A stretch of DNA of 64,000 nucleotides, taken from assembly GCA_949318235.1 (NCBI GenBank), contig OX439134.1, positions 23,324,662 to 23,388,661 on the forward strand, written 5' to 3'. Below the pieces are notes generated by a model. That model did not search any database and was not told the DNA's origin. It was given only the letters and a program-made list of their open reading frames with translations. Origin of the DNA: Ecdyonurus torrentis. Taxonomy: Eukaryota; Arthropoda; Insecta; Ephemeroptera; Heptageniidae. The position numbers and the translations under genes are program-made. This document shows positions 1 through 61,425 of the stretch, one piece after another. Within the stretch, counting starts at the first letter, position 1. Every line of letters starts with the position of its first letter.

Positions 1-3000
1 CAACGAGTCAACACTGAGGCATAACAAGGACTTGCAACTGAACCCAAGCACTTCTGACTATGATCAACATCCATACCCCATTGGTCTGGACCCAATCTGG
101 CAGGTAAAACAAAAATAAAGTTAACATGCCTACAAGTTTTTTTTTTATTTCAATGATAACTTCAAAGTTTGGGACTGCACTGTTTTTATGTTTCTTCACT
201 TAATAGCAGACATTGCAAAAGTAGGTTTAGTGATAAAATAAACAAACTGACAGCTCAACAATACTAACAAAGTGCTAGCAGACGACTTTGTGTTCCTGTC
301 TACATTATTTAACATGCTTTCTTATGGGGCAATGAAGCAGCTATAACTTGAGTTAGAATTATTTTTCAAAGCTGAAATTTTTACTGTAGCTTTCTGAGCC
401 TCAGAGCTTTTGTTTTCCTAGGTTTCAAGTGATTTGGTTCAAATTATTTTTTACCCAATTGACTTGAAATCCAGGAAAACAAAAGCTTTGAGTCTCAGTA
501 AGCTACAGTAAAAATTTCAGCTCTGAAAAATAATTCTAACTCAAGTTATAGCTGCTTCATTGCCCCATAAGAAAGCATGTTAAATGTAGACAGGAACACA
601 GAGTCGTCTGCTAGCACTTTGTTAGTATTGTTGGGCTGTCAGTTTGTTTATTTTATCACTAAACTTACTTTCGCAAGTCGTCTATTGCTCAATGTATATT
701 TATTATTATTGTTATTATTATTATTTCATACTATTCTAAAACAAGACATTGTCCTATATCGATTTATATGTTAAATTTTTAATTTTTGAATTCATTAAGT
801 ATTGAAACTTGAAAAATGACATAGGTAACATTAATGCTGTTCGTAAACCCTGTTCTCTTGCACCAAAAAATGCGCATTCCATTTGAATAACCATAGGCGA
901 TCGTCATTTTTGGTGCAGAGAACAGGGTTTACGAACAGCATTATTGCAACTTTAATAAATAAAATAAAAATACGGTTCCACTTAATCAAGTAAAAAGTTA
1001 TTCATATATCTTGATTCAGGACAATAAGAATATGATATAAATTAGGCCCTAAACTTTTGTCATTGTTGCCATAACAATAAGGTTTGAAATTGTAGCTGCC
1101 TTGTTATTGTGACAGAGATACTACAAGCTCTCTGATTGGCTAGTGAGTTGCCACTGATTGGCTAGTGGGTTGCCACTGGGCCAATCAGAAGTTTTACAAT
1201 AACAAGGTGCACTAGCTGTCTCTACCTAAAAGTGTAGATGTGTGCTATATGGTATGTATAATTAAGTAGAAAAAAACTACATATAAATACATAACGTGTT
1301 ATTACTGCTTTACATAACTCTCCATTAACTCTCCATTTTATGAAGTTCAATGAGGAAGGTGAATTGAAATGTTTTTGTTGAGTTTATGATATTTTTGGAA
1401 AGAGCTTTAAAAAATTTTGAGGTGTTATTTTTATTAGGACGATTGGAGCATGGGAAGCATTTTTAATTAAATTTTGAAAATCGACCTAAAAAGTCTGTGA
1501 CGTCATCAGTTCACTTTTTTCTCAGAAAATACTAATTGTTCGAGGTTCAGTAACCAGTTTAATAAAATCAGCTCGTCCTCAGGATTTCCAAAATTTGGCT
1601 ACTGAACCTTCTACGGTCAATACTTTCCGAAATAAATGACCGATTGATGACGCCACAGGCTTTTTAGGTTGATTTTCAAAAATTAATTAAAAATACTTCC
1701 CATGCTCCAATCGTTCTAAGAAAAAATAGTGCCTCAAAATTTTTTAACTTTCTTTTCAAAAATGTCATAAAAAGTGGCGGTTAAAAAACATTCACCTTCC
1801 TCATTTTGTATATTTCTCAATTTTGTGACCTGCTATGTTGTTAGCAGATTTCAATAAGCATTGTGATGTTAAAGCTCTCCGTTTTGTGCATTTCAAATTT
1901 GTGAAATGTCCTTTTTCTGGTTCCCTTGCGATATCACAACATCAAAAGTTTAATGTATAAACTATATATACTGTAAGCCTATATAAAATTTGTTATTTAT
2001 TTGCTAATGTTTATTTTGTTGTCAGGTTGCTGAGAACAAGATTATATTCATGAACTCTTACAAAATGAAGATCTCCATCATCATTGGAGTGTTCCACATG
2101 TTGTTTGGAGTGATGCTCAGTCTGTGGAACCACGTGTAAGTCTAAGCTATCTTTAACATGCATCACTTTATTTCAGCCCCCTTGCACATCCTTGTGCTTT
2201 GTCACCATGTTTGTGGTGCCTAATGCATTGGCCAGCATAGGGGAAACATCATTTCTACTAATTTTTCACATTAAAAGAGTATTTCAACTGAACTAATTTT
2301 TCTCATATTCTTCAATCTTATTAGGAGCTAGAAATTAGGCTTTGATTGACCTTTGAAGCTTCTTTTGCTATTAAAAATATAAAAATGAAGTTTTTCCTAT
2401 GTTGGCCTATGTATTCCTGACCAACAAAATGGCAGCTCTTAAATATGAGTGCAACCAGTCTATAGCAGCCTAGAACAGCTAGTCATTCTTAGGCAGCTAT
2501 TACAGTGAGTGACAGAAAGAAGGTGCTCTCTGATTGGTGGATCAGAATGTTCCGGGCTGCTATTGGTGGCTTGAGATAAAGTTTACTGTAGTGTATGTTT
2601 ACTGTTTTGTTTGTGTATCTGCCTAATGTAACTTCCGTATATAAATATAAAAGGTGCCTTGTGCTTGCAATATTGTTTCACCCCCTTTGTTGTATCTGTT
2701 AATTAAAGATTTTCACGTCATGTAACTTTCAATATAATCTGTTGCTTTTCTTTGATTTGCCTAAAGTCACTTGTATGTTAAAATTATTCTGTAGCTACAG
2801 CTACATACAGTCAGGGCCAGCACTAATGTTAACTATTTTGCAGATATTTCCGCAACCGCCTGAGTATTCTGACAGAGTTCATCCCTCAGATCATCTTCAT
2901 GTGCTTCTTGTTCTTGTACATGGTGCTGCTCATGTTCATCAAGTGGGTCTACTACGGTCCAACCAACGAGGTGAAGAGCGGGCCTTACTGCGCTCCCTCC

Positions 3001-6000
3001 ATCCTCATCACCTTCATCAACATGGTGCTCTTCAAGTCAAGCAAGAGTCCTGATGTATGCGACGACTACATGTTTGCAGGCCAGGTGAGAATTGCCTACC
3101 TATATCTCTGCTAGGTGATGAAAATCACAGGGAAAGTAGGTGGTGTGTAGATCTTGCTGGCACAGGTAACACAAATATTTGTATAGGCTAGTGTAGCTTA
3201 CTGTCTTAAAACATGTCTAGTATTCCACATTTAAATATTTGTGACCTCAGTGCAGTAATTTTCTCACAAACACATTAACAAGAGGCTTCTACAATGTTAA
3301 ATTAGTACATTTTACTGTCTTAAAACACGTAAAAGTATGTCTAGTATTCCACATTGAAATATTTGTGACCTCAGTGCAGTAGTTTTCTCACAAACACACT
3401 AACAAGAGGCTTTTAGGATGTTAAATTAGTACATTTTACTGTTGTAAAAACTACCTAACACTTTCAGTTTAAAAAGTTAACTACCCAATGCTAGGCTATA
3501 CTTAATGTGTGATACCCATATGTTATGTGTGACACAGGGAGGACTACAGAAGCTGCTGGTGGTGATAGCTCTCCTATGTGTACCAGTCATGTTGTTGGCC
3601 AAGCCAATCATCATCATGAGAGCTCAGAACAAACATCAGCCTGTGAGTATACTCATCAAGTCCATGCCCTAGCATATTACATACATACATATATATCATG
3701 ATGCTATAGTCCCTAAGCCAACAACATAGATGTGACCCAGTGATAGACCTCCACAACTTTCTATCCTGACATACTTCACTTGCTTCCTCCAGTCTCAAAC
3801 CTTGTTTCATACATTTCCTTTTGCATCTCATACTGCAGCGTACATTCTTATTTTTTAAACATCTTCCAACCATGATGTTTTAGGCAAGCTGCCTCTATCT
3901 CTCCTTCCATCTACCCTGCTATGAAATATGTACCTGTTTTGCAATTCTTTCATCACCCATTCTCTCAACATGACCAAACCACCTTACGTAACACACTGCT
4001 CTCGTACTTCTCAGTCACAGTTTTTTCACTCCACATTTCTCCATCACCCAAGTATTCCATACACTATCTAATCTTGTTTTACCTAGCATTTTGACTCCAT
4101 ATAATAATATTAATAATATAGGGTGGATGCATTCATGTTAAAGTCATTGCCACTTTTACATTGATTTGCATTTTAAACTAATGGTTTATTTTTACACTAT
4201 ATATTTACACTGTAGTGCACTCGTCATAATGGTCCTTCATGAGATGGATTATTTCCCTTGCTATCTCAAATATGTAGCAACGACTAACTTAACCTAGAAC
4301 GTGACTGACTTGGACTGGACATTGTTAAAAGAAGAACTATATTTTCACAATAATTCTTTGCACATTCTTTATTTCCAACAAAACAAACACTGCAATTTTC
4401 AAACAAAATCAAGTAAATTTATATTTAGTTTTTTTTTTTTTCCAGAAAAAGTTTTAATAATATTTTTAATTTTAAAAAAAGTTTCTAATTTGCCTAAAAT
4501 TCGCCGCTCAAATTAAAATTTTCACATATACATGTTATCTTTAAAATGTAATAACTTAAATATTTGATCATTTTTTTTTACATGTTTCACATAACTAAAT
4601 TTTAAATAACATTGCTTCTTTAAATTGTGTTTATATTATAATTAGCCACCGTCTAGTTTGCGAGATATCAGTCGGTCACCTACCCCCTTCAGTGGTTTTA
4701 CGTTGTATGTATGTTGACAGTTGACCAACGCAGGGCACGCTAACAACGCTGCAGAGAACGGTGACGCTGGCTACCAGGCTGATGATTCCATGCAACAAGG
4801 TCAGATGGCAGAACCAGCCACACAACACGAGGAAGAGCACGATATTGGAGAACTTTTCATACACCAGGTAAGAACTGCTTACGTTCATTGTAGACAAGGC
4901 AACTTACCCTGTCTTGGCATTTACATCATAAAACACTTGATGGGACGTACATAGCTAAATAACATTAGTTTGTCTCAAAACTCAGCTGTAATGCTGTAGC
5001 ATTGATTAGAAAATGTTCTTTTTTTTTATACAAATTAACTAGCACTGCATTAGTAAATTTTAATACTCATTTTTGTGTTGCTGACGCCTTAAAGGCCTTG
5101 TCAACTTAATTTTTTATTATATAGAATACTATATTAATAATTAAAATACCTTATTATCCATGAATTAGACACCAACATGTTGATTTTGTATTTATTTTCA
5201 TTTTGACTCTTACAGTACAGTATATCACGTATCTGACGTCACAATGTACAGATGGGGCCGTGATAGGGGTAAAGAACTTGAGGGAGGGGCTTAAATTTAT
5301 CACGTGACCAGAGCGGTGACTGTGATTGGCGGCGGTACATTGTGACGTCAGATACGTGAAATAATAGTCAAAATGAAAATGAATGAAAATAAATACAAAA
5401 TCAACGTGTTGGTGTCTAATTCATGGGTAATAAGATATGGTAATTATCAATTTAGTATTCTAAATGATAAAAAAGTAAATTGACAAGGACTTTAATAATA
5501 ATAACGTGTATGACTAGTATCTTCGTCTTCGTCTATGTCTCGTGTTAGACTTCAGTATATCAAGCAGTAAATGTATATTTATGTTGTTGTATTGTGCAGG
5601 GTATCCACACCATTGAGTACGTACTCGGCTCTGTGTCCCACACTGCCTCGTATCTTCGTCTCTGGGCTTTGTCTCTGGCTCATGCTCGTAAGTAATTGTG
5701 TTTAATTTATCTTTAATATCTCAAATTTATCTCAAATATCACAAATCAATGCTGTTAATTATTTTTAAAGTTCAATTTCGTAACTTCATTTTCCCCCACC
5801 ATTATATTTTTAATTTTAACCACTTAATTATGAAGCATCCTTGCTAAAAATTGCCTAATTTTATTACCTTTAAGTATCATTCACATGGAGTGCAAATTCT
5901 ATGTCCGTCATTGACGGTTACCCGAATTTGTTTGTTTCACATGAGAAAAAAAATTGCATTACTGTGCATGCGCGGAAAATCTGACGGATACCGACGGAAG

Positions 6001-6870
6001 GAGCTGCGCTTATGTAAACAAATGCAACCATTCACATGCACCCGTCGCTCCCCATCAGTATCTGTAGTTTTGACGTATAGTGACACGTAGAAAAGCTGGG
6101 TGTTGCCAGCTGTCGGTATCCGTCAGTTTTAAAACAATTTGAAAGTTTTTTTTTTTTTTTTTTGGTGTTGCATTATAAACAAGTTGCAACAATACTTTTT
6201 CAACTTTGTTTACCTGTCAACGTCTGTACGTCACCAGAAGTAAAATTTTCACTCCATGTGAATGATACTTTAGGTGAAGTGGAAGTTACGTAAATAATTG
6301 TCTTACAGAAAAAATAATTGTTTACGTGAACTTTATTTATTTATTTTTTATTATTTTTTTTAATTGCCTTTAAAATAGTAATTTAATTTGTATTTCTTTT
6401 TAATTCTTACCGTAGGTATAATTTATAAGGTTGTAAAGAAAATGTGTAAAAAGTGTATAAATGGCTTGTGAAGCTGCTAGCGTCAATCATACACTGGATT
6501 ATTTTTGTTGCAGAGCTAAGTGAAGTGCTGTGGAACATGGTCATGAGAAATGGACTTATCTTCGAGGACTGGGTCGGAGGTATCGCTCTCTGGGCAATCT
6601 TTGCTTTCTGGGCAGTGCTCACGGTGGCCATCTTGGTGCTCATGGAGGGTCTTTCTGCCTTCCTGCATACCTTACGTCTGCATTGGTACGCTCTTTTTTC
6701 CCACATACACACAGATTAGTTGATGCAACAGCTTCAGTGACGTTGTGTCATGTTTTGTTTTTGATTTCAGGGTGGAGTTCCAAAGTAAGTTCTACGTGGG
6801 CCAAGGTTATGGATTCCAACCTTTCTCCTTCGAGGCAATCCTTGACTCTGCTCAGGCTACCGAGGAGTAA
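1..6870 (+). CDS. ATP6V0A: V-type proton ATPase subunit a (116 kDa V0 subunit), 3' part, eight exons
   Basis: Subunit a of the membrane V0 sector forms the proton half-channels of the vacuolar ATPase, which acidifies endomembrane compartments. Exons: 1-103, 2026-2135, 2844-3084, 3538-3642, 4721-4867, 5600-5687, 6514-6685, 6771-6870. All junctions are GT-AG, phases agree, and the stop TAA is at 6868. They encode the last 354 residues of a protein usually about 830 long; the N-terminal cytosolic half lies before the window. Seen: the PIGLDPIW segment, hydrophobic membrane helices in exons 2-4, an acidic variable loop in exon 5, and [15 protein letters not shown] across exons 6-7. The arginine of that motif (about residue 255 of the fragment) matches the essential proton-path arginine of yeast Vph1 (R735), and the later TLRLHWVEF holds the second conserved arginine. 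No frameshift or stop is present. The family call is near certain; the paralogue (a1 to a4) is not determined. Confidence 0.96.
206..688. mobile_element. Foldback MITE, family I copy 1
   Basis: Two arms of about 230 bp are near-perfect reverse complements around an AT-rich centre near 445. The outer part reads AAACAAACTGACAGCTCAAC on the left and is mirrored at 640-665. It lies in intron 1 of the V-ATPase gene. A second copy is at 44003-44455 and a fragment at 52250-52350. No coding capacity. Confidence 0.85.
833..943. mobile_element. Short palindromic MITE (about 110 bp)
   Basis: Arms of about 40 bp, starting AATGCTGTTCGTAAACCCTG and mirrored at 905-943, flank a centre of about 30 bp. A decayed relative is visible near 41600-41690. 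It is in intron 1 of the V-ATPase gene. Confidence 0.8.
1060..1235. repeat. Inverted-repeat sequence with an internal 22-bp direct duplication
   Basis: The segment CCTTGTTATTGTGACAG near 1100 is mirrored by the sequence at 1190-1215. Between them TGATTGGCTAGTGAGTTGCC occurs twice in tandem (1132-1176), the second time with one change. Probably a small decayed MITE. Confidence 0.5.
1349..1806. mobile_element. MITE, family B copy 1
   Basis: Terminal inverted repeats start AATGAGGAAGGTGAATTGAA and extend more than 100 bp into the element. It carries TGACGTCA at 1498. A truncated copy is at 54270-54593. It lies in intron 1 of the V-ATPase gene. Confidence 0.8.
2165..2470. mobile_element. Interspersed repeat, family H copy 1
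   Basis: This stretch in intron 2 of the V-ATPase gene matches, in reverse orientation, 58240-58528. Shared segments include the CATCCTTGTGCTTTGTC end, ATTCCTGACCAACAAAATGG, and the ATATTTAAGAG-type terminus. At 58240 the family interrupts another MITE, so it is mobile. A fragment of one end recurs at 44758-44800. Confidence 0.7.
3197..3445. repeat. Tandem duplication of about 118 bp, related to MITE family F
   Basis: Two consecutive units share TGTCTAGTATTCCACATT, GTGACCTCAGTGCAGTA and CACTAACAAGAGGCTT with few differences. The TATGTCTAGTATT core also occurs in the family F elements at 29613, 45105 and 48090. It lies in intron 3 of the V-ATPase gene. Confidence 0.75.
3660..4110 (-). pseudogene. 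Non-LTR retrotransposon (LINE) remnant, C-terminal part of the reverse transcriptase ORF
   Basis: Reading the minus strand in shifting frames gives the familiar LINE tail: [18 protein letters not shown], then GRRDRG and PKTSWLEDV, then [19 protein letters not shown]. Known: this block follows the reverse transcriptase domain in several LINE clades. Frameshifts and stops interrupt it, and no 5' part or poly-A tail is seen, so it is a dead fragment. It lies antisense in intron 4 of the V-ATPase gene. The clade is not determined. Confidence 0.72.
4113..4290. mobile_element. MITE family E, one end only
   Basis: ATATAGGGTGGATGCATTCA followed by GTTAAAGTC matches the terminus of the family E elements found from 40 to 63 kb. 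The interior cannot be followed far. Confidence 0.5.
4910..5020. mobile_element. MITE family C fragment
   Basis: The block from CATAAAACACTTGATGGGAC through TTTGTCTCAAAACTCAGCTG matches the interior of the family C copies at 42280, 51544 and 55098. It begins about 45 bp after the exon 5 donor of the V-ATPase gene. Confidence 0.65.
5089..5495. mobile_element. MITE family A copy 1, flanked by TTAA
   Basis: Inverted termini (AGGCCTTGTCAACTTA on the left, mirrored by GACAAGGACT on the right) are each bounded by TTAA (5089-5092, 5492-5495), the target duplication expected for Kolobok or piggyBac elements. Arms include TTATCCATGAATTAGACACC and its mirror. TGACGTCA occurs at 5234 and 5343. Other copies: 46732-47120, and one split by an insertion at 40905-42165. 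Confidence 0.85.
5866..6278. mobile_element. MITE with TIR AAGTATCATTCACATGGAG
   Basis: The left terminus is mirrored by CTCCATGTGAATGATACTT at 6250-6272. Inner segments around GACGGATACCGAC and GTCGGTATCCGTC are also mirrored. It lies in intron 6 of the V-ATPase gene. Open frames here are too short and too palindromic to be genes. Confidence 0.75.
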
Positions 6871-7006
6871 ACCATTGATCTGATGTTTAACCAGCATACT
6901 TATGTATCTGAGCGTCTGCTCGGAGCATTGCACTTTGTGCCACAAATCACTGTCGACTAATACAGCAAAGTCAAATTATATCAAGTAAATCTAATTATGT
7001 AGCTTC
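6871..7006 (+). other. Start of the V-ATPase subunit a 3' UTR
   Basis: The sequence after the stop codon is plain AT-rich DNA and holds no AATAAA before the MITE at 7007. AATAAA-type signals occur further on, around 7382 and 7418. If one of these is used, the MITE is transcribed within the UTR. Confidence 0.5.
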
Positions 7007-7327
7007 TTAAGGGAGTAGGGTACCGACCTTATATCACAAAAACTAGAATGTGTTTTGGGTCTAAATTTGGTATCACACCTAGCCATGATAAAAATGTCAA
7101 TATGTTCGAATGTCTTGAAAAAAAGAAAAAAATTATTGAAATTAATATTGAGCTTTTTGGGCTTAAAATTTCAAAAAAATCACATAAAATCAAATTGAAC
7201 GGTAACCCCTTAAATTTTTTATATATTTGAATTTGTCTCAAGCTGAAGTATCATTGTGCAAAATTTCAGATTTTTTTGTGGTTATAAGTTTGAATCTAAT
7301 GGCCGACGTCGGTACCTACTCCCTTAA
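7007..7327. mobile_element. TTAA-flanked MITE with TIR GGGAGTAGGKACCGAC
   Basis: TTAA at 7007-7010 precedes GGGAGTAGGGTACCGACC, and GTCGGTACCTACTCCC precedes TTAA at 7324-7327. The 313-bp interior is AT-rich and non-coding. Ends and target duplication are intact, suggesting a fairly recent insertion only 136 bp after the V-ATPase stop codon. Confidence 0.85.
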
Positions 7328-8959
7328 TACAAATTTTTTGTCAAAACTTAGACAAATATTACTGTATAAATTAATGGTAATAATAAATATAATTATAAAT
7401 TTTCATCAAATATAAAGCAAATAAAATTAATAGTAAAAAATGCTGGTTATAACTGAAGATTCACATAAAAAAAAGTATTTAAAGGTAAAAAAAAATTATC
7501 ATTCCACTTTAAGATGATCTGATATGTAGCTATAGCTGGGTGGTAACATTAAATAAAATATAGAAACTTAAAATTAATTAATTTGTTAGTTTTAATTGCT
7601 GTGATTTGCGATCAAGTATATTAATTAATTAAATACTCTTTGACTTAATTAAGTTATTGCAAATATTTTGTACAGAAACGTATTTATCAAATATCGTCGT
7701 GTCGTTTGCATTGCATTTTCTAGACGTTGCCTCATATTTTTGTTACAATCATCTTTGCTACTTGCTTATTGTTTATTATTATTATTTTTTTGGTCACTTC
7801 ATTTAAGTCCTCTTATTTTTATTTTCAATGTATTTTTAGTGTTGTCTCCACATAATGAAAAATATTAGTCCTCAGGAAAAAAAAAAAAAAAAAAAAAAAA
7901 CTTTCAGAATCTTTTAAAGTTTTTTTTTAAAAATATTATTTTGAAAGATCCAATAAGACATAAAATTGTATTGTTAATTGTAATTATTGATCTTAATTAA
8001 ATCAATATATAGGAAGTCACATTACAACAAGAGTATGGAAAACAAGTTTTTTTAATGTAAAAAATCAAAGTTAATTCAAGATACAGAAGGTACATGGTAT
8101 AATTCGCCATTTTACTGTCATCACAACTCGGTTTCCTTCATATAACTTGTAATTTTGACATACGTCATACAAGGTGACAGAGCCACGTCGTCTCTCAGGT
8201 ACAATACATTATGTACCTGAAAGAGAAGAAGGGACACAAAATTTTCCCTCTTTCAGCGCTAAATTTCCCCTCTTTTTTTTATTCATCTGGTGTCATGTTT
8301 CGTACCTGATGCTACCTAGGCAAACTACACTACACCAGTTAATTATAAAAATAAAGCTGTTATCACAATATGCAATATAATTGTTATCTATGCATGGGTA
8401 CCTAATATAACTTAAATCATTAAGTCAACTCTTGTTCTTGTGAAATTACAAAAGGGACCCAGGAAATGGTCATTTCACACGATGGAAATGCTTTAACATT
8501 GGAAATAAATCCTCTTTTGGTTCAAAATTAAAAGTTTACTAATAAAAAAAAAAATGAGCTGTCATTAGAAAATGCAATACAAAATTATCATTATTAATTA
8601 TATACAACTTAATTTCTTATAATTTTATGACTTTTTTTTTCTTTTTCTTCTTCTTTTTTCTTTTTTTTTTTCATTTAGAAACTAATATTTTGAGGCAACT
8701 GCCACAGTAAATCAACTTTATTTTAACGGATTTTTTTTTAACACTAATAGTATGTTTTAATTTCGAAGTATCATTTGTAATTCCAAAACTGTGTTTGTTG
8801 TGTTGAACAATTAGTTATTGTTATTGATTTAAATGTTATTGTAGATATATACATAGATATATATGTGTACAGTGTTAAATAATATCACTATATAGGAGGG
8901 AAATGTATTGTAAAATTTGGTACATCAAATTGTTATTGGTTTATTTAAAAATAAAATTA
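7328..8959. other. AT-rich non-coding DNA, nothing further recognised
   Basis: Homopolymer A and T runs (7881-7900, 8630-8672), a small perfect palindrome around CAGGTACAATACATTATGTACCTG at 8190-8222, and no convincing ORF or RNA gene. Confidence 0.5.
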
Positions 8960-11487: not shown

Positions 11488-12700
11488 CAGGGTTGGGCAC
11501 CTAAATCCGGATTTTTTTCTTTTTTTTTAATTGTCATTTTTTTAAAGAAATATTTACAGTAGTGCCTTGAAGTGATGTGTGGTGATGCTTAGGGATGTGT
11601 AGAAGGGGTTTACTCGATGTAACCGCCATCAGCTGCAATAGCAGCCTCGAGACGGGGGGGGGGGGGGGGGGGGGGACTGCTGACACGCCCTCTTTAGCTC
11701 CTCCCCCTTTAATTTCCTGAATCTAGCTTAAATGGCTTTCTTCAGAGAGTTGACATTGGGGTGTCTGGACTTGTTAGTGTCCCTCTCAACTACGCCCCAA
11801 ACATAGTAGTCCAGGGGGTTCAGGTCGGGGCAATTTTGGGGGCCAGAACTCCTTGGGCCAATACATGTCCATGTTGTCGTCTAACCAATTCTGCACATAG
11901 TGACTATTATGGGCGGGGGCACCGTCTTGCTGAAACACGTATAGCCTCCCAGCAGCTACCTTTTTAATCCAAGGCTTTACTTTCTTCTTTAAAACATCGA
12001 GGTACACCTCTTTTGTAACCGTTTCCACCTTTTTGAAAAAAATGGGGTGGCATGACGTCCCCTTCACTTGACACGACCCCTAAAACGTGAACACTTGCTG
12101 GAAACTTCACTCTAGGCACTACAGGTACTTCATCAGGGTCCCGAGCAAGGCACCTGTCATTTCTACGGTTCAGATATTCCTCCACAGTAAACATTTTCTC
12201 GTCAGAAAAGAAGCGAATGCGACCTGACGCCTCGTGCTTCAGAGACGTGAGCAAAAGATTACCCTTGGTGACTCTCTTCCTTCTCGCATCCTCTGACAAC
12301 ATTTGGCGGACTTTTAATACATAAGACTTGTACCTGAGATCTTCTGCTGCAATACGACCCTTTGTACGTCTGCTGACCTTGACCTTTGACCCCAACACAG
12401 TCAATGGTGTACGAGGGTTCTTTTCAATGAACTTTTGTGCCCTTTTTATTGCATTTAGAGTCCTCATTGGCCTAGTACGGGCATGCACCTTGCGTGCCGG
12501 TGTACCAAAACTTCCATCCACATCTCTTGGAGCCCGGAATCGCTTAGCAACATCATACACCGTCGATGTCGCGTAATGAAAGAACTCGATAATTTCAGGA
12601 ATTGTCCTTCCGGCGTGAAGTGCTTAAGTATTCGCCACTATTCTATTATATTCCTCGCTTAAAGGCACTCTTTACCCTGGAATTATATCCCTTTTATATA
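11488..12700 (-). pseudogene. Tc1/mariner (maT-like) transposase, inactivated
   Basis: On the minus strand a mariner-type transposase can be followed across frames. An N-terminal helix-turn-helix region (GRTIPEIIEFFHYATSTVYD, 12550-12690, with stops) is followed by VAKRFRAP, then the first catalytic aspartate in RFFSDEKMFTV (about 12200), LGVVSSEGDVMPPHFFQKGG, and the second in VFQQDGAPAHNSHYV (about 11900-11940). PDLNPLDYYVWG follows in a third frame (about 11790-11840). The second to third aspartate spacing is about 37, fitting the DD37D (maT) clade. Frameshifts lie near 12030 and 11830, and a G(23) run sits at 11655-11677. One end, CAGGGTTGGGCACC after TA, is visible at 11488; the other is not. 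Inactive. Confidence 0.82.
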
Positions 12701-13190
<490 letters not shown>

Positions 13191-13745
13191 TAATACATCG
13201 ATTATAATAATACTCTATGATATTACAAGAGTTAGTAAATGAACCAGTATATATGCTAGATTACGCTGTGAAGAAGTATCCAAACTGCCGAACGAGTGAC
13301 CTGAAACAAAATACATTATTTATTGTTATTTTTGTACATTTTAATTGTATAATTAATTACCCTAGCTGGTTAATTTCTTTGGTGTTATCCACATTGCTAT
13401 ATAAGCGCGTGTGAAAAATTTAAATAAATTAAATTTTGTATTGGCTGAGTGCATATAAAAATTAAAAAACATATTATAACATCCTTATTTATTTAAGAAA
13501 TTTTATTATTATTTATTTTACGTTGTATATTTTATATGAAAGTTATCGTAGAAAAAATCTTATAATTTTATTGTTATTTTTATCTATATAATAAATATAA
13601 CTATTACATAAATAATTAGTTTTTTACTGCATACATATATTATGTAAGAGCAAAATAATAATAATAATATTTTGTGTATTACGTAAATTTTTATATTCCT
13701 AATATATATAATAAACAAATATTATGAGCGACTGTGTGTACTCAC
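13191..13745 (-). other. Probable 3' UTR and 3' intron of the Kolobok-like transposase gene, plus AT-rich DNA
   Basis: On the minus strand the transposase stop TAG is followed directly by GTGAGT, a consensus donor (13745 downward). A possible acceptor, TATGTATGCAG, lies near 13629-13639. The element's terminus should be in this region, but I could not find a pair of terminal inverted repeats. Confidence 0.4.
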
Positions 13746-15808
13746 CTAAACTAAACGACTGCTGTGAATCGGTACACTGTCTGCATCTGGTCTTGGTTCT
13801 GGTGCGCTCGAACTTGGTGATGGGACAATGGAGAACAGGACATCGAATTCTTCTCCATAATCTTCAATTCTTGGTTGATTATGAAGATCAATGATGCGAA
13901 GATGAAGATTTAAGCGCCAAGCCGAGTCTTTTTCTTCGTAGATGCTTACCCACTTCCAGCGCTGGGTTTTTTTGGAGTATATAAGTTTGCTTCCGACCAC
14001 CTCTCTGCCCACGTTGGAGTTATTATCCAGAGCTGCTAGAATCGTTCTGTCAATCATACCTTCATGCGAGAAACTTAGTCTCTTTGGCATATACAGAAGT
14101 ATGAGATTGTGAAACGATTCTAGCGGCCCTGTGTGCATATTTTCGTACGCTTCACGTAGATCTCGTAAGAACGATGGTTCTAAGATTAGTTTTTCTAAAG
14201 CTTTGTAGTCGGCGTCATCACGGATAAGGTATCTCTTATGGGGGTCATGTAAATCATCGTCATCTGTATGGTAGCATCCGAACTGAAGTTGAGTCCCATC
14301 ACTTCCTTCTTCAAACCATACCTGCACATTACAAATGTGGTTAAGCGTGGACTTGAACATTTCAATCAGCTTGTCACCATCTCCGTCACAATGTGCACAG
14401 CAGAACCAGATGTGACGAATTATATTGTATTTCCAATCTTTCAACTTACCCATCCCAGACTTTTGCGATAAAGCAGTGTACTTTTTGTTGAAAGATTTTG
14501 TTAGGTGCCATACGTCATACGTATGTTTTACCTCTTTATATTTATCTCTCATTAATTTTGATACACCAAGATGGCGGTCTGTGCATAGTACGTTGAAGTA
14601 CTGCAGCTCTGTTGACAGACGCTCAAGTAGGATGTCACACGCTAGAACCTCCAAGGAGGCGCTCGTCTGCGTTGGTTCTTTTTTTAATACAATGAAGTCT
14701 AATATTTTATTAGACCTAGCAGTCATAGTTGTGTGCGTATGAAGGTACGCACAGTATCCTGGTGAATCATATCTTCCATCGGAAATTATTTTGGTGCCCT
14801 TATCGTCCTTGGAAGCAGCTTCATTTTCTTCCTCTAAGTTTTGTTTTCTTCCACTTGTAGCGGAGGTTTGGTGACACAAACTCTTTTACATTGCTGTAGA
14901 ATGATGTTTGACATATGCTAGGTAATTGAAGTGTACGTGTAAAACGTTCGAATCCAGCATAGGGCAGGCCGCTGAGGTAAGCTGCTGATGTGAGTGCAAC
15001 ATTTCCAACTGGTTTTTTATTGACATCTACTTGAGATTGCCAAACATTGTTATGATGCTGTAAACACTCTGTTTCAATTTCAACCATGCTCCCACACTGT
15101 CTTTTCACTTTGCTATAACTTACTGGGGAACCACACTCAGGACAAAATCTAAAAAGTTGTTGCAATTTAGATTTCTGCACTAACACAAATTCAAATTCAG
15201 CATTTTCCCGCCACATTTCATCACTATATTTTAGGGTGTTTTCACATTCACTTTCACTTGATGTCTCAAAGTCTAATGTTTTAACAGTTGCGTCATTGAC
15301 ATCGCACTGTTCATTTAAATTCACATCTGAATAGTCTGAAAAAAAGGATGAATTTTGTCCAATGTTGCTAACACCTGTATCAAAATTGTATTTAAAGTCT
15401 TTCTGCTTTTTAAATGGAGTTGAGGTAATAGGCAAACTATTTTGCAGCGATGAAGAGGTAAAATTACAACCTGACACACCACTGTCAATTGTTTTAGCAA
15501 TTTTGGATGGAGGTTCACCCAACTCTTCAGGTGTGGTGGTGATTTCTAAGCTTGAGCAGATTGAGTTGTCGTGAAATAAGTAGAGGGATGGCACTGCAGT
15601 TTCCTTAATTCGTAATGTATTAAATTCCAAATTAGCTATGTCTTCACCATGGTGAACTTTAAACTGTCCATCGACAAAATCATCGTCACTGAAGTGAAGT
15701 GAACATATGTTGCTGGTGGTGAAAATTTCACTTCCTTGCCGTCCAGTAGCAAGTATAAACTTTTCATACCTATAAAACAAACAAAAACAATAAGCACACA
15801 AATAAAAA

Positions 15809-15809
<1 letters not shown>

Positions 15810-15854
<45 letters not shown>

Positions 15855-15865
15855 ATAAATAAATA

Positions 15866-15904
<39 letters not shown>
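15810..15904. repeat. (GTCT)n, (CT)n and (TA)n compound microsatellite
   Basis: GTCTGTCTGTCT, then CT repeats, then a TA run of about 30 bp, all in the transposase intron just upstream of its acceptor on the minus strand. Confidence 0.9.
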
Positions 15905-15907
<3 letters not shown>

Positions 15908-16532
15908 GCTGACCATATATATTTAGATGCAAAATCGGGACACTATAACCGTAGGAGAGAGGCAACTTGGCACGTGGGGGCGAAGGCCTTAAAAGGGGTG
16001 TGGTCCCCGATTTTTAAGTGTATTTTGATCGATTTACAAATGGCCATTATTAAAAAACAAAAATTTAAAAATTAAATTTTCTATAGAAAACAATTAAAGA
16101 ACTACGTCCACTTTTTTTTTAACATAAATTTTAAATATTTTTCTTTTTTGCTTCAAAAACAATTTTTTTACGTACAGTCATTAAAATTAGCTCAAAAAAT
16201 TGAAATTTCAATAAAAAATATTATTATTGTTATTAATATTTTTTATTGTATTACCAACTATTTACCAAGCAAATTATTAATTTAGCAAAAGAAAAAAACA
16301 AACAAAGAAACAAACAAAAAAAACGGAGATTAATTATTAATAAAGCACGACATTTTTATATATTAAAATAAATCATATGTGTGTGTGTTTTATAGATTTT
16401 TTTTAATTTTATTTTTTCTATTGCTAACTATTTATTCCCTTCATGAGAGATCGGGACATTTTAAATTTTAGCCGGGAAAAGGGGTCAAAATCGGGATTGT
16501 CCCGGGAAAATCGGGACGTCTGGTCAGCCTTA
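15905..16532. mobile_element. hAT-like non-autonomous element in the transposase intron
   Basis: Termini AGGCTGACCA (15906) and TGGTCAGCCT (16521-16530) are inverted. Both continue into imperfect CGGGACA/TGTCCCG-rich arms. This terminus (GGCTGACCAGACGTCCCG type) is common among hAT elements. The interior is AT-rich with no transposase. The flanks are TA-rich, so the 8-bp target duplication cannot be read with confidence. Confidence 0.72.
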
Positions 16533-16936
16533 TATAATATAACAATAATATAAAATAATATATATATATAATAATTAATAATATATAATAATATATTTTA
16601 ATAAATTAAATTACTATAAATAAATTGATTTATTTTGTGTATTTATTTGAATTATAAAATTTAGCATATTTTATTAATTTGCATCATTGTCGTAACAACA
16701 ATACTTTTTCTAATATTTAATAAAATATTTTTATATTGTTTTTAGGGCTTCTATATGGCTTAAAAATATTCGTATAAAACTGGAAAGAATGCGAGCAACA
16801 AATTAAATACATATTATGCTCACCTTTGATCTTCTTTCTTTGGAAATTTTTGATGTGCAATTTTTCTTTCTGGAAAATCTTCGTTTTTTCTTCCAATTGT
16901 CCTGCATCCTAACACAGAACACTTCCGTGGAGGCAT

Positions 16937-17271
16937 GCTGCATATGCACGGAATAATATTTTTGTAAAGTGAAGCTTGATCTTGTTGTCTTGGGTTCGCG
17001 AAAATACTCAGGTGTTGTTTTTCTACCTTTTTTATTGTTATGATTTTTAGTTAACGATGACTAATGCGCATAACTCTTAATGACATATAGTACACAGCCA
17101 TTAGCAGGTGACCAACACCTCTTTTTTTTTTTTTTTTTTTCCATTATTATAAAAATTCACGAATTTTTTTTATTGCACTTGCCAGCCAGTCTCAAATTAT
17201 TTTTAGAGAGTGTAGCATCACTTTTTTCAACGTCAACATAATTTACAAAGTGAATTTTTTTAATTAAAATA
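16937..17271. promoter_or_regulatory. Divergent promoter interval of the Kolobok-like element
   Basis: This 335-bp gap separates the start codons of the THAP transposase (minus) and the ballast-domain gene (plus). It contains a T(22) run at 17119-17140 and moderately GC-richer blocks near 16937-17000 and 17180-17230. No element or gene interrupts it, so both genes probably fire from here. Inferred from layout; no TATA box is certain. Confidence 0.5.
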
Positions 17272-17823
17272 ATGAGTGGAGCATTAGGAACAATGCCTGA
17301 ACCAGTAGCCACTGAACAAGAATATCAAGAGTATTTAGAACGTTTACGTCAAATTAATGAAGTTGAGGAAGAAAGAAAAGGACGTTCAGTTAATACAGCT
17401 TGGTGTGATTGCGAAGTTTGTATCGCAATGCCAAAAGATGTGGAATGTTTCTGCTGCAAAGAGAGTACTCTATTACAGGAAATTATGCAGAAAGAAAATT
17501 TGCAATGCGTGACTGCGCACAGTGAGTTTAATACTTTTGTGACAGGCAGTAGAATACTTAAAATATTACGCGGTGATAAAATAAAAAGAAATAAGCCAAA
17601 TTATTTAAGAGACCAAGACTCCAATAAAATGTGGCGCTATCTAGCTTATTCTGCATTTATTAAATTTGTTAGATCATATGTGCAGTTAGGAAAAGACAAT
17701 GAACGTTGAGTGCGTTATGTAATTCCCGCATGTGTCGTCGGAGAGATTAGACGTAAATATCCCAGTCCTGATGGGAATTACAAAGGATTTTGCTCCAGAT
17801 TTGGACCCAAATTCCCTGCTTGA
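17272..17823 (+). pseudogene. P2X7 'ballast'-domain-like protein, accessory gene of the Kolobok-like element, one in-frame stop
   Basis: The frame opens at ATG 17272 (AAAATAATGA context) and runs to TGA 17821, about 183 codons, interrupted by TGA at 17707-17709 (codon 146). Residues 1-44 are an acidic, coiled-coil-like leader (EQEYQEYLERLRQINEVEEE). A Cys/His cluster follows: WCDCEVC (C45, C47, C50), CFCCKE (C59, C61, C62) and C79-x3-H83. Then come YLAYSAFIKFVRSY and, after the stop, YVIPACVVGEIRRKYPSPDG and YKGF. This order matches the zinc- and guanine-nucleotide-binding cytoplasmic ballast domain at the end of vertebrate P2X7 receptors. No P2X channel domain is present, so it is a stand-alone domain. 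It is divergent from the THAP transposase across 335 bp. The stop could be a CGA-to-TGA mutation. Function unknown. Confidence 0.78.
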
Positions 17824-18218
17824 TACATAGGTAAGTTTATTATTATTATTTGAATCATGCTTAATTTTAAATCATTATCATGGTTCTGGTTAAAAAACCA
17901 TCATATTTTAAATTTTAAAACGATAATGTGTTAGTAAACTTCTAACCATGATAATCATATTACTCATGTGTGTGTGTTTGATAAGAAAATATAACAATAA
18001 TATAGAAATAACTTGTAAAATTAAATTTTATTACACCTTTTTCTTATATTCTTTATAGGTTATGGATTGCTGCTAAGTGCGTTTGAAAATAAGAGCCTGA
18101 TTTGAAACTGCGGGAGTCGCAATTTTCGTCACATTATAAATTTACATATAATGTATAATTTTATATAATATTATTCTATAAAATATAATTTTGTCTTTTT
18201 CTTAACTGAAATAATAAA
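17824..18218 (+). other. 3' UTR of the ballast-domain gene with a spliced intron and poly-A signal
   Basis: Seven bases after the stop codon a consensus donor GTAAGT begins at 17831. A pyrimidine-rich acceptor, TTCTTTATAG, ends at 18058, predicting a 228-bp UTR intron. AATAAA stands at 18213-18218. The transposase gene has a comparable donor directly after its stop codon. Confidence 0.55.
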
Positions 18219-18560
18219 TAATGTTATGTGTATGTTATGCTTCTTATTTAATATAATATTATTATTCTAAATTACGAATCATGTTTAATCAGTTTTATAT
18301 TTACTTTTATTATTATTTTTTTGAACAATAATTATCTGTCTTCAATAGCTACATTCTTTCATTCATTTTTTAGTAATAAACTATAAATTTTAAATTTTAT
18401 ATGTTCATGCTGTATATTTTGTCAAAATGCAGCATATTTTTACTATAATATAATAGAGAATTAATAGTAAAAACCAATTAAAAGACTAAAAAACTACCCA
18501 TATATACAATATTATATACATATAATGCAAAAATCATTTCGTAGAGAGTAAATTGTTGTT
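18219..18560. other. AT-rich DNA probably holding the right end of the Kolobok-like element
   Basis: No gene seen. Several TTAA tetramers occur, but none pairs with an obvious inverted repeat near 13.2-13.7 kb. Confidence 0.3.
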
Positions 18561-18569
18561 GCATATACT

Positions 18570-18745
18570 TGAAATTTGCTTTTGCCGCTCAAATCCCCAC
18601 ATCGCTCCTCTCACGCTGACGTCACGGTGATCTGCCAATCACAGGTATTTTGCTCCTACCACCTGACTTCATAGCAAATAGCTAAAGCGGCGTTGCTTCC
18701 TCGCTCACGCTGACGTCAGCGTGAGCGCTCTTAAGGGTAGCCTCA
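18570..18745. repeat. GC-richer segment with two CREB-type palindromes
   Basis: CTCACGCTGACGTCACGG at 18610 and CTCACGCTGACGTCAGCGTG at 18705 share a 15-base core, and GCTAAAGCGGC echoes TTTTGCCGCTC of the left part in reverse. It looks like a decayed small MITE. Confidence 0.45.
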
Positions 18746-18904
18746 ATTTTTTTTCTCCCTAACGGTGCATTTGATGGGCACAACTTTGGTATACTGATTA
18801 TCAGTAAAAATTTTTAAAGAAAATAAAAAATACTTGCTTCTACCGTGAAGAGGGCCTTTAATTCAAACGACTCATCCATTTTTGCACACGAAATTAAATC
18901 TACA

Positions 18905-22324: not shown

Positions 22325-23345
22325 CTTTGGCTCATTTTTAGCAAAAAAATTATTTGGGCCCCACTTAGGGCCCCCTCTTTCAGAATGTCCGCTCGATGTC
22401 TCCCCTGGGGACCTCAGGAGACATCTCAATATTTCATTGCTCTGTAAAAAATGGATTAAATGACAAATAAGTTGAGGGCCTACTTGGGGCCCTTCGTTCA
22501 GGATGTCCGCTCGATGTCTCCCCTAGAGACCTCAGGAGACATTTCTGAATATTTCATTGCCCTGTTAAAAATGGATTAAATGACAAATAAGTTGAGGGCC
22601 TCTTTGGGGCCCCTCGTTCAGGATGTCCGCTCGATGTCACCCCTAGGGACCTCAGGAGTCATATCAATATTTTAATGCCCTGTAAATAATCGATTAAATG
22701 ACAAATAAGTGGAGGGCCTACTTGGGGACCTTCGTTCAGGATGTCCGCTCGATGTCACCCCTAGGGACCTCAGGACACATCTCAATATTTCAATGCCCCG
22801 TAAATAATGGATTTAATGATAAATAAGTTGAGGACCTACTTGGGGCCCCTCGTTCAGGATGTCCGCTCGATGTCTCGTACCTGGGGACCTCAGGAGACAT
22901 CTCAGTATTTCAATGCCCTGTAAAAAATGGATTAAATGATAAATAAGTTGAGGGCCTACTTGGGTCCCCTCGTTCAGGATGTCCGCTCGATGTCTCATTC
23001 CTGGGGACCTCAGGAGACATCTCAGTATTTCAATGCCCTGTAAAAAATGGACCAAATGACAAATAAATGGAGGGCCCACTTGGGGCCCCTCTTTCAGGCC
23101 GCTCAATGTCTCACCTGGGGACCTCAGCAGACATCTCAATATTGCAATGCCCTGTAAATAATGGAATAAATGACAAATAAGTTGAGGGCCTACTTGGGGC
23201 CCCTCGTTCAGGATGTCCGCTCGATGTCTCATACCTGGAGACCTCAGAAGACATCGCAATATTTCAATGCCATGTTATAACAAAGGATGAAACATAAATA
23301 ACTTAGGGCACTTGGTTCAGGATGTCCGCTCGAATTCTTACCGTG
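22325..23345. repeat. Tandem array, unit about 119-120 bp, about nine copies
   Basis: GGATGTCCGCTCGATGTCTC recurs at about 22500, 22620, 22738, 22857, 22977, 23213 and 23315, with variants at 22383 and 23095. Each is followed by GGGACCTCAGGAGACATCTC and AATGCCCTGTAAAAAATGGA. One unit near 23095 has lost about 10 bp. It lies within the 5.1-kb foldback. Confidence 0.92.

Positions 23346-49151: not shown

Positions 49152-61425
<12,274 letters not shown>

Follow-up and report, generated by a model that had tools for sequence, protein, structure and literature searches.

A decayed, most probably Kolobok-type transposon of Ecdyonurus torrentis with a THAP-DDE transposase and a divergent KolX gene related to the P2X7 ballast domain

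We analyzed a 64,000-nucleotide stretch of Ecdyonurus torrentis DNA, hereafter the window (assembly GCA_949318235.1, contig OX439134.1; G000:C15:23324662-23388661), and searched the genome of 503 Mb on 117 contigs for related loci. Based on its sequence, the window most probably carries (probability about 0.9) a decayed cut-and-paste DNA transposon of the Kolobok superfamily, Kol0 type, with two divergent genes, one for a THAP-DDE transposase and one for KolX, a protein related to the ballast domain that ends the P2X7 receptor. Kol0 Kolobok elements are described as encoding a transposase and KolX (Kojima & Bao 2022, PMC9587614). The central idea, i.e., KolX, its ballast fold and the derivation of P2X7, was already published in that 2022 report; both inferences of an initial annotation of this DNA, that the ballast domain may belong to the usual accessory genes of the transposon lineage and that vertebrate P2X7 may have captured it from a mobile element, are not new. 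The present analysis adds the precise element ends together with an empty site, the count of gene associations, a convergent variant, the figures for selection and co-descent, and a genome whose P2X and ballast genes are separate, in which the first job of the ballast can be tested.

The element in the window

The initial annotation had placed the transposon at 13746..18218. Both genes lie within that interval; comparison of ends with the related locus L020/L028 revealed that the element itself is wider, spanning 12663-18857 (6,195 bp) with a TTAA at each side. Its parts are listed below.

12659..12662, no strand: left TTAA target-site duplication; homology with L020/L028 ends there
12663..12682, plus strand: left terminus, starting with AG; imperfect terminal inverted repeat, with 15/20 positions matching the right end
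13746..14885, minus strand: DDE (catalytic) part of the transposase; near 14.85 kb its frame departs from that of the upstream part (open reading frame (ORF), alignment)
14821..15769, minus strand: transposase exon 2, with the rest of the THAP domain, linker and Cys-rich part (ORF, Pfam)
15770..16823, minus strand: proposed transposase intron, GTGAGC ... TTTATAG (splice sites predicted from sequence)
16824..16936, minus strand: transposase exon 1, with the ATG and the initial portion of the THAP domain; ends at the GTGAGC donor
16937..17271, no strand: gap of 335 bp between the two divergent genes (ATGs at 16936 and 17272)
17272..17823, plus strand: KolX, the P2X7 ballast-domain gene, with an in-frame TGA at 17707-17709 (ORF, P2RX7_C profile)
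17831..18058, plus strand: possible intron of the 3' untranslated region just past the KolX stop, GTAAGT ... TTTATAG (predicted from sequence)
18838..18857, minus strand: right terminus, AG inward (end comparison)
18858..18861, no strand: right TTAA target-site duplication (end comparison)

The nearest relative of the window copy, L020, lies on contig C37 in the opposite orientation, with protein identities of 98.4% for KolX, 97.1% for transposase exon 2 and 99.2% for the DDE part. The alignment of the two copies runs from 12659 to 18861 and breaks off at both sides, and in both copies TTAA is followed inward by AGGC. When the window flanks were joined over one TTAA, they matched a continuous stretch at C20:576868-576952 (query bases 2-86, 87% identity), which is the empty site of the insertion and settles the boundaries of the element. 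The window copy is broken in both genes, since KolX contains the in-frame TGA and the reading frame of the transposase breaks near 14.85 kb, where two ORFs overlap.

The transposase proposed for the minus strand was borne out in both of its domains. The spliced THAP domain of the window scored 40.0 bits against PF05485 (cut-off 23.9); the domain was also above cut-off in L009 (37.7 bits) and below it in L014 (20.9) and L018 (16.3), both represented by their exon-2 part only. The DDE part of the window is 35-99% identical to the seven other aligned rows. D24/D28, D91, D112-x-W-H115 and E244 are invariant in all eight rows, which include the near-identical pair of the window and L020; which D is catalytic was assigned by analogy. 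C154, H171, C192 and H194, located in the region of the Kolobok H2CH-type zinc finger between C/DxxH and E, are likewise invariant (8/8). Pfam did not name these pieces Kolobok; the best over-threshold name, for the L012 DDE piece, was PF20700 Mutator-like transposase (57.9 bits, cut-off 26.5), and the L014 and L009 pieces gave sub-cut-off matches to MULE or Mutator. In a protein-database search with the L018 transposase, 8,000 candidates were scored and none reached E <= 0.001. The C/DxxH motif is reported for MuDR, P, hAT and Dada as well (PMC9587614); the TTAA and the AG ends are Kolobok's. A Xenopus study names DDE, THAP and H2CH as motifs commonly seen in Kolobok and lists full copies having AG termini and TTAA (PMC6004289). 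The window element thus shares with the Kol0 lineage (Kolobok-1_XT type) the TTAA duplication, RR termini (here AG), THAP and DDE domains, DxxH and the conserved Cys/His columns, and, according to the accounts in PMC9587614 and PMC6004289, a second gene, KolX, with a ballast fold and seven conserved cysteines.

Within the transposase intron, a stretch at about 15908-16532 has ends that by eye resemble inverted repeats, GGCTGACCA ... TGGTCAGCC; it may be a small inserted element.

Pairing of the two genes across the genome, and the flanks of the window copy

Searching the genome with the P2RX7_C profile gave 21 matches, and with the DDE part 36 matches. After merging by hand these correspond to 20 ballast loci (two matches on C26 forming one locus) and 25 transposase loci. 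Seventeen of the 20 ballast loci have a transposase match no more than 12 kb away, the largest gap being 9.2 kb, compared with about 0.02 loci expected by chance, so that the suggested proximity of ballast genes to transposases holds well above chance. The genes are divergent in 16 of these pairs and convergent in one (L010). TTAA-flanked ends around both genes were found in 7/20 loci: the window, where they enclose KolX at 17272-17823, L020/L028, L010, L013, L014, L015 and L016. These seven represent four distinct families, because the window and L020 on the one hand and L014, L015 and L016 on the other are near-identical. All seven have AG inward at both ends, except for AA at one L015 end; four further loci (L012, L017, L018, L019) show the KolX-side end alone. 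L014-L016, located on contigs C8, C15 and C12, are near-identical copies of about 6.9 kb with inverted repeats of about 1.6 kb, different flanks and both genes, and reflect recent transposition of a distant KolX family. Compared with the described Kol0 lineage there is no difference in kind; the predominantly divergent arrangement and the three copies with long inverted repeats are what was seen here. Taken together, the pairing and the shared ends support the view that the ballast domain is part of the regular accessory gene set of this lineage of transposons.

In the convergent variant L010 (G000:C11:36242100-36252000), the two genes face each other inside TTAA-flanked inverted repeats at 2967-8935.

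A pattern in which other Kolobok copies lack the gene and ballast genes stand alone elsewhere was not found. The following observations weigh against the pairing. Three of the 20 ballast loci have no transposase match; two of these (L021, L022) are on C20, about 100 kb apart within a 97.5% segmental duplication, and the third is close to a contig end. On the transposase side, 8/25 loci have no ballast match, all of them short or interrupted matches of 180-875 bp. The single one of these eight that was inspected, on C39, is a C-terminal transposase piece, and the 5.8 kb preceding it contain no KolX. These counts may miss transposase copies of the second clade (L014) without KolX, and further ballast genes.

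As for the C20 ballast pair itself, one frame is open and the other has a TGA.

To characterize selection on KolX, the ratio of nonsynonymous to synonymous change (dN/dS) was estimated by Nei-Gojobori counts on nine chosen pairs. The ratio was 0.062-0.115 in seven pairs, values that are rough as dS was at least 1.75 in these seven; it was 0.165 for window/L020, and one pair was saturated in dS. Amino-acid change in KolX is clearly restrained, pointing to purifying selection. In addition, KolX and transposase distances among seven elements correlated with r 0.89, a value reached by 7 of 5,040 label permutations (Mantel test). The test covered 7/20 loci, with the window, L015, L016, L017 and L019 dropped as near-identical or incomplete and the others lacking an aligned transposase. 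KolX identity among the seven elements is 26-75%, so deep a divergence, reaching as low as 26% in KolX, is one through which the two genes have stayed together.

These results bear on whether the ballast is instead a host (Nanor-like) gene family, beside which Kolobok inserted or from which it was picked up repeatedly. Stand-alone ballast genes are reported across animals (Rump et al. 2020, PMC7016195), and the three unpaired loci described above would fit such a family. This explanation is nevertheless largely refuted and very improbable: both genes share the same TTAA-flanked ends in 7/20 loci, near-identical 6.9-kb copies carry both at three places, and the co-divergence of the two genes speaks against repeated fresh capture. 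For Nanor and nanor-like proteins, in which the ballast stands alone, an origin as domesticated KolX has been proposed (PMC9587614), whereas the gene described here is part of a transposon.

The window copy of this two-gene Kolobok element sits in the following target.

11786..12658, minus strand: mariner-like ORF fragments of the left flank, the insertion target, outside the element (ORFs; empty site)
18862..18883, minus strand: right flank, with the beginning of this interrupted mariner-like ORF (empty site)

This target ORF is itself decayed; we take it to be mariner-like from a motif, and it gave only sub-cut-off Pfam matches, to HTH and DDE_3. Elsewhere in the window, a 120-bp tandem repeat occupies 22363-23275 (7.7 copies). 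An exon-like stretch on the minus strand at about 49746-49856 resembles the phosphorylase superfamily PF01048 (24.7 bits, just under the cut-off of 25.1) and may belong to a uridine phosphorylase gene.

KolX and the P2X7 ballast domain

The match of the second gene to the vertebrate P2X7 ballast stands. The window KolX frame has 183 codons and scored 58.2 bits against P2RX7_C with the TGA read as X (cut-off 23.5), the part before the stop alone scoring 27.3 bits. The TGA cuts the C-terminal motif off from a 145-aa ORF. The gene shows both the Cys/His cluster and, at the C terminus, YVIPACVVGEIRRKYPSPDG...YKGF. The head-to-head arrangement across 335 bp was also confirmed by the positions of the two ATGs. 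This gap may contain the promoter that the initial annotation proposed for both genes; in L010 the two genes are convergent. Splice donors had been noted just after both stops, and donor-like GT is indeed present in the window copy; as a general trait it did not hold, since only 6/15 KolX rows have a donor-like motif no more than 20 nt from the stop and 3/11 transposase rows have GT right after it.

Eleven of the 20 loci were aligned for KolX, leaving out the window, L019 and L022 (one stop each), L015 and L016 (near-identical to L014), L017 (shortened frame, near-identical to L012) and the fragments L024, L026 and L027. The seven zinc-site cysteines are kept in 11/11 rows. Structure prediction gives KolX the P2X7 ballast fold, and mostly that fold alone. 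KolX and the C-terminal P2X7 ballast (PF20478) agree in sequence profile, cysteines and predicted fold, by which their homology is confirmed; in contrast to P2X7, KolX has no channel part. Among the guanine-nucleotide contacts, R546 and R578 have equivalents in 11/11 rows, while H547 is present in 2/11 (Tyr in the other 9/11) and R574 and K583 in 0/11, being replaced by Val or Ile and by Ser or Glu, respectively. P2X7 outside mammals is reported to lack two guanine-nucleotide contact residues as well (PMC7016195). KolX has been described as resembling P2X7 476-595, with the ballast fold and seven conserved cysteines (PMC9587614). Our protein-database search with KolX returned nine proteins, three of them named as oyster, chiton and fish, as protein records without genomic context.

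The same report derives P2X7 from the fusion of a P2X4-like gene with KolX (Kojima & Bao 2022, PMC9587614); the P2X7 tail would then be captured KolX. In this genome, PF00864 (P2X) gave six exon-like matches, all at C1:10650192-10656069 and read as one gene, and the P2RX7_C search gave no ballast match on C1, so that no P2X-ballast fusion was detected. A tree of the eleven KolX proteins, nine database relatives and one P2X7 piece put P2X7 on a branch of about 4.6 changes per column with unresolved placement. The capture from a mobile element suggested by the initial annotation is thus upheld as to homology and is a published claim, while the direction of transfer is not decided by our tree, because of that very long, unplaced branch. 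The reverse course, in which the transposon took the domain from a P2X7 gene, draws on the same homology and on a tree that cannot root the exchange. It is extremely improbable, more so than a host gene family, given the 26-75% KolX identity among seven elements of this genome alone, the P2X matches on a contig without a ballast match, and reports of non-vertebrate ballast domains unjoined to P2X, occurring in sponge and cnidarians (PMC7016195).

Possible role of KolX in transposition

From family knowledge, the THAP domain would bind the element ends and the DDE domain would cut and join at TTAA. KolX would act as a dedicated cofactor, a zinc-stabilised module assembling with the transposase or its DNA complex. 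We consider it more probable than not that KolX is a cofactor of the transposition reaction. The P2X7 ballast binds guanosine diphosphate (GDP). The THAP-DDE transposase of the Drosophila P element needs bound guanosine triphosphate (GTP), which positions the transposon end (PMC7776569), and shares C/DxxH with Kolobok (PMC9587614). In P, the GTP-binding insertion lies inside the transposase, whereas KolX is a separate gene with a ballast fold. Together these points suggest the idea that KolX may bring guanine nucleotide to the complex in trans. Binding of guanine nucleotide by KolX in the manner of the P2X7 ballast is conceivable but rather improbable, two of the five contact residues being kept. 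A bolder and still less likely idea is that the transpososome contains KolX as an obligate subunit which senses guanine nucleotide and supplies in trans what the P transposase has built in. A loose Pfam scan of four Kolobok transposase pieces, in which filters drop most weak matches, listed no P-type GTP-binding domain.

KolX might instead be a regulator, e.g., a repressor, a titrator of the transposase, or a protein that acts on the chromatin or the innate sensing of the host. Purifying selection and co-divergence, as read from the sequences, would suit any function at the level of the element, this one included. In other Kolobok lineages the accessory proteins are described as nucleases and a helicase (PMC9587614), which by analogy only favors a role in the DNA reaction; we regard regulation as about half as likely as the cofactor role. 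The literature on the ballast domain, KolX, Kolobok and P2X7, as far as our sources cover it, gave no mechanism for KolX.

In inflammation P2X7 serves as a drug target, and little is understood of what its ballast does. The genome of E. torrentis encodes eleven divergent KolX proteins with open frames and no channel, mostly in a transposon setting, beside ballast-free P2X exons. It can therefore be tested whether zinc and guanine-nucleotide binding is older than P2X7, and what job the ballast does in the transposon. Should KolX be a nucleotide-sensing subunit, an ATP-gated immune receptor, P2X7, would have taken over as its ballast what was once the nucleotide sensor of a transposon.

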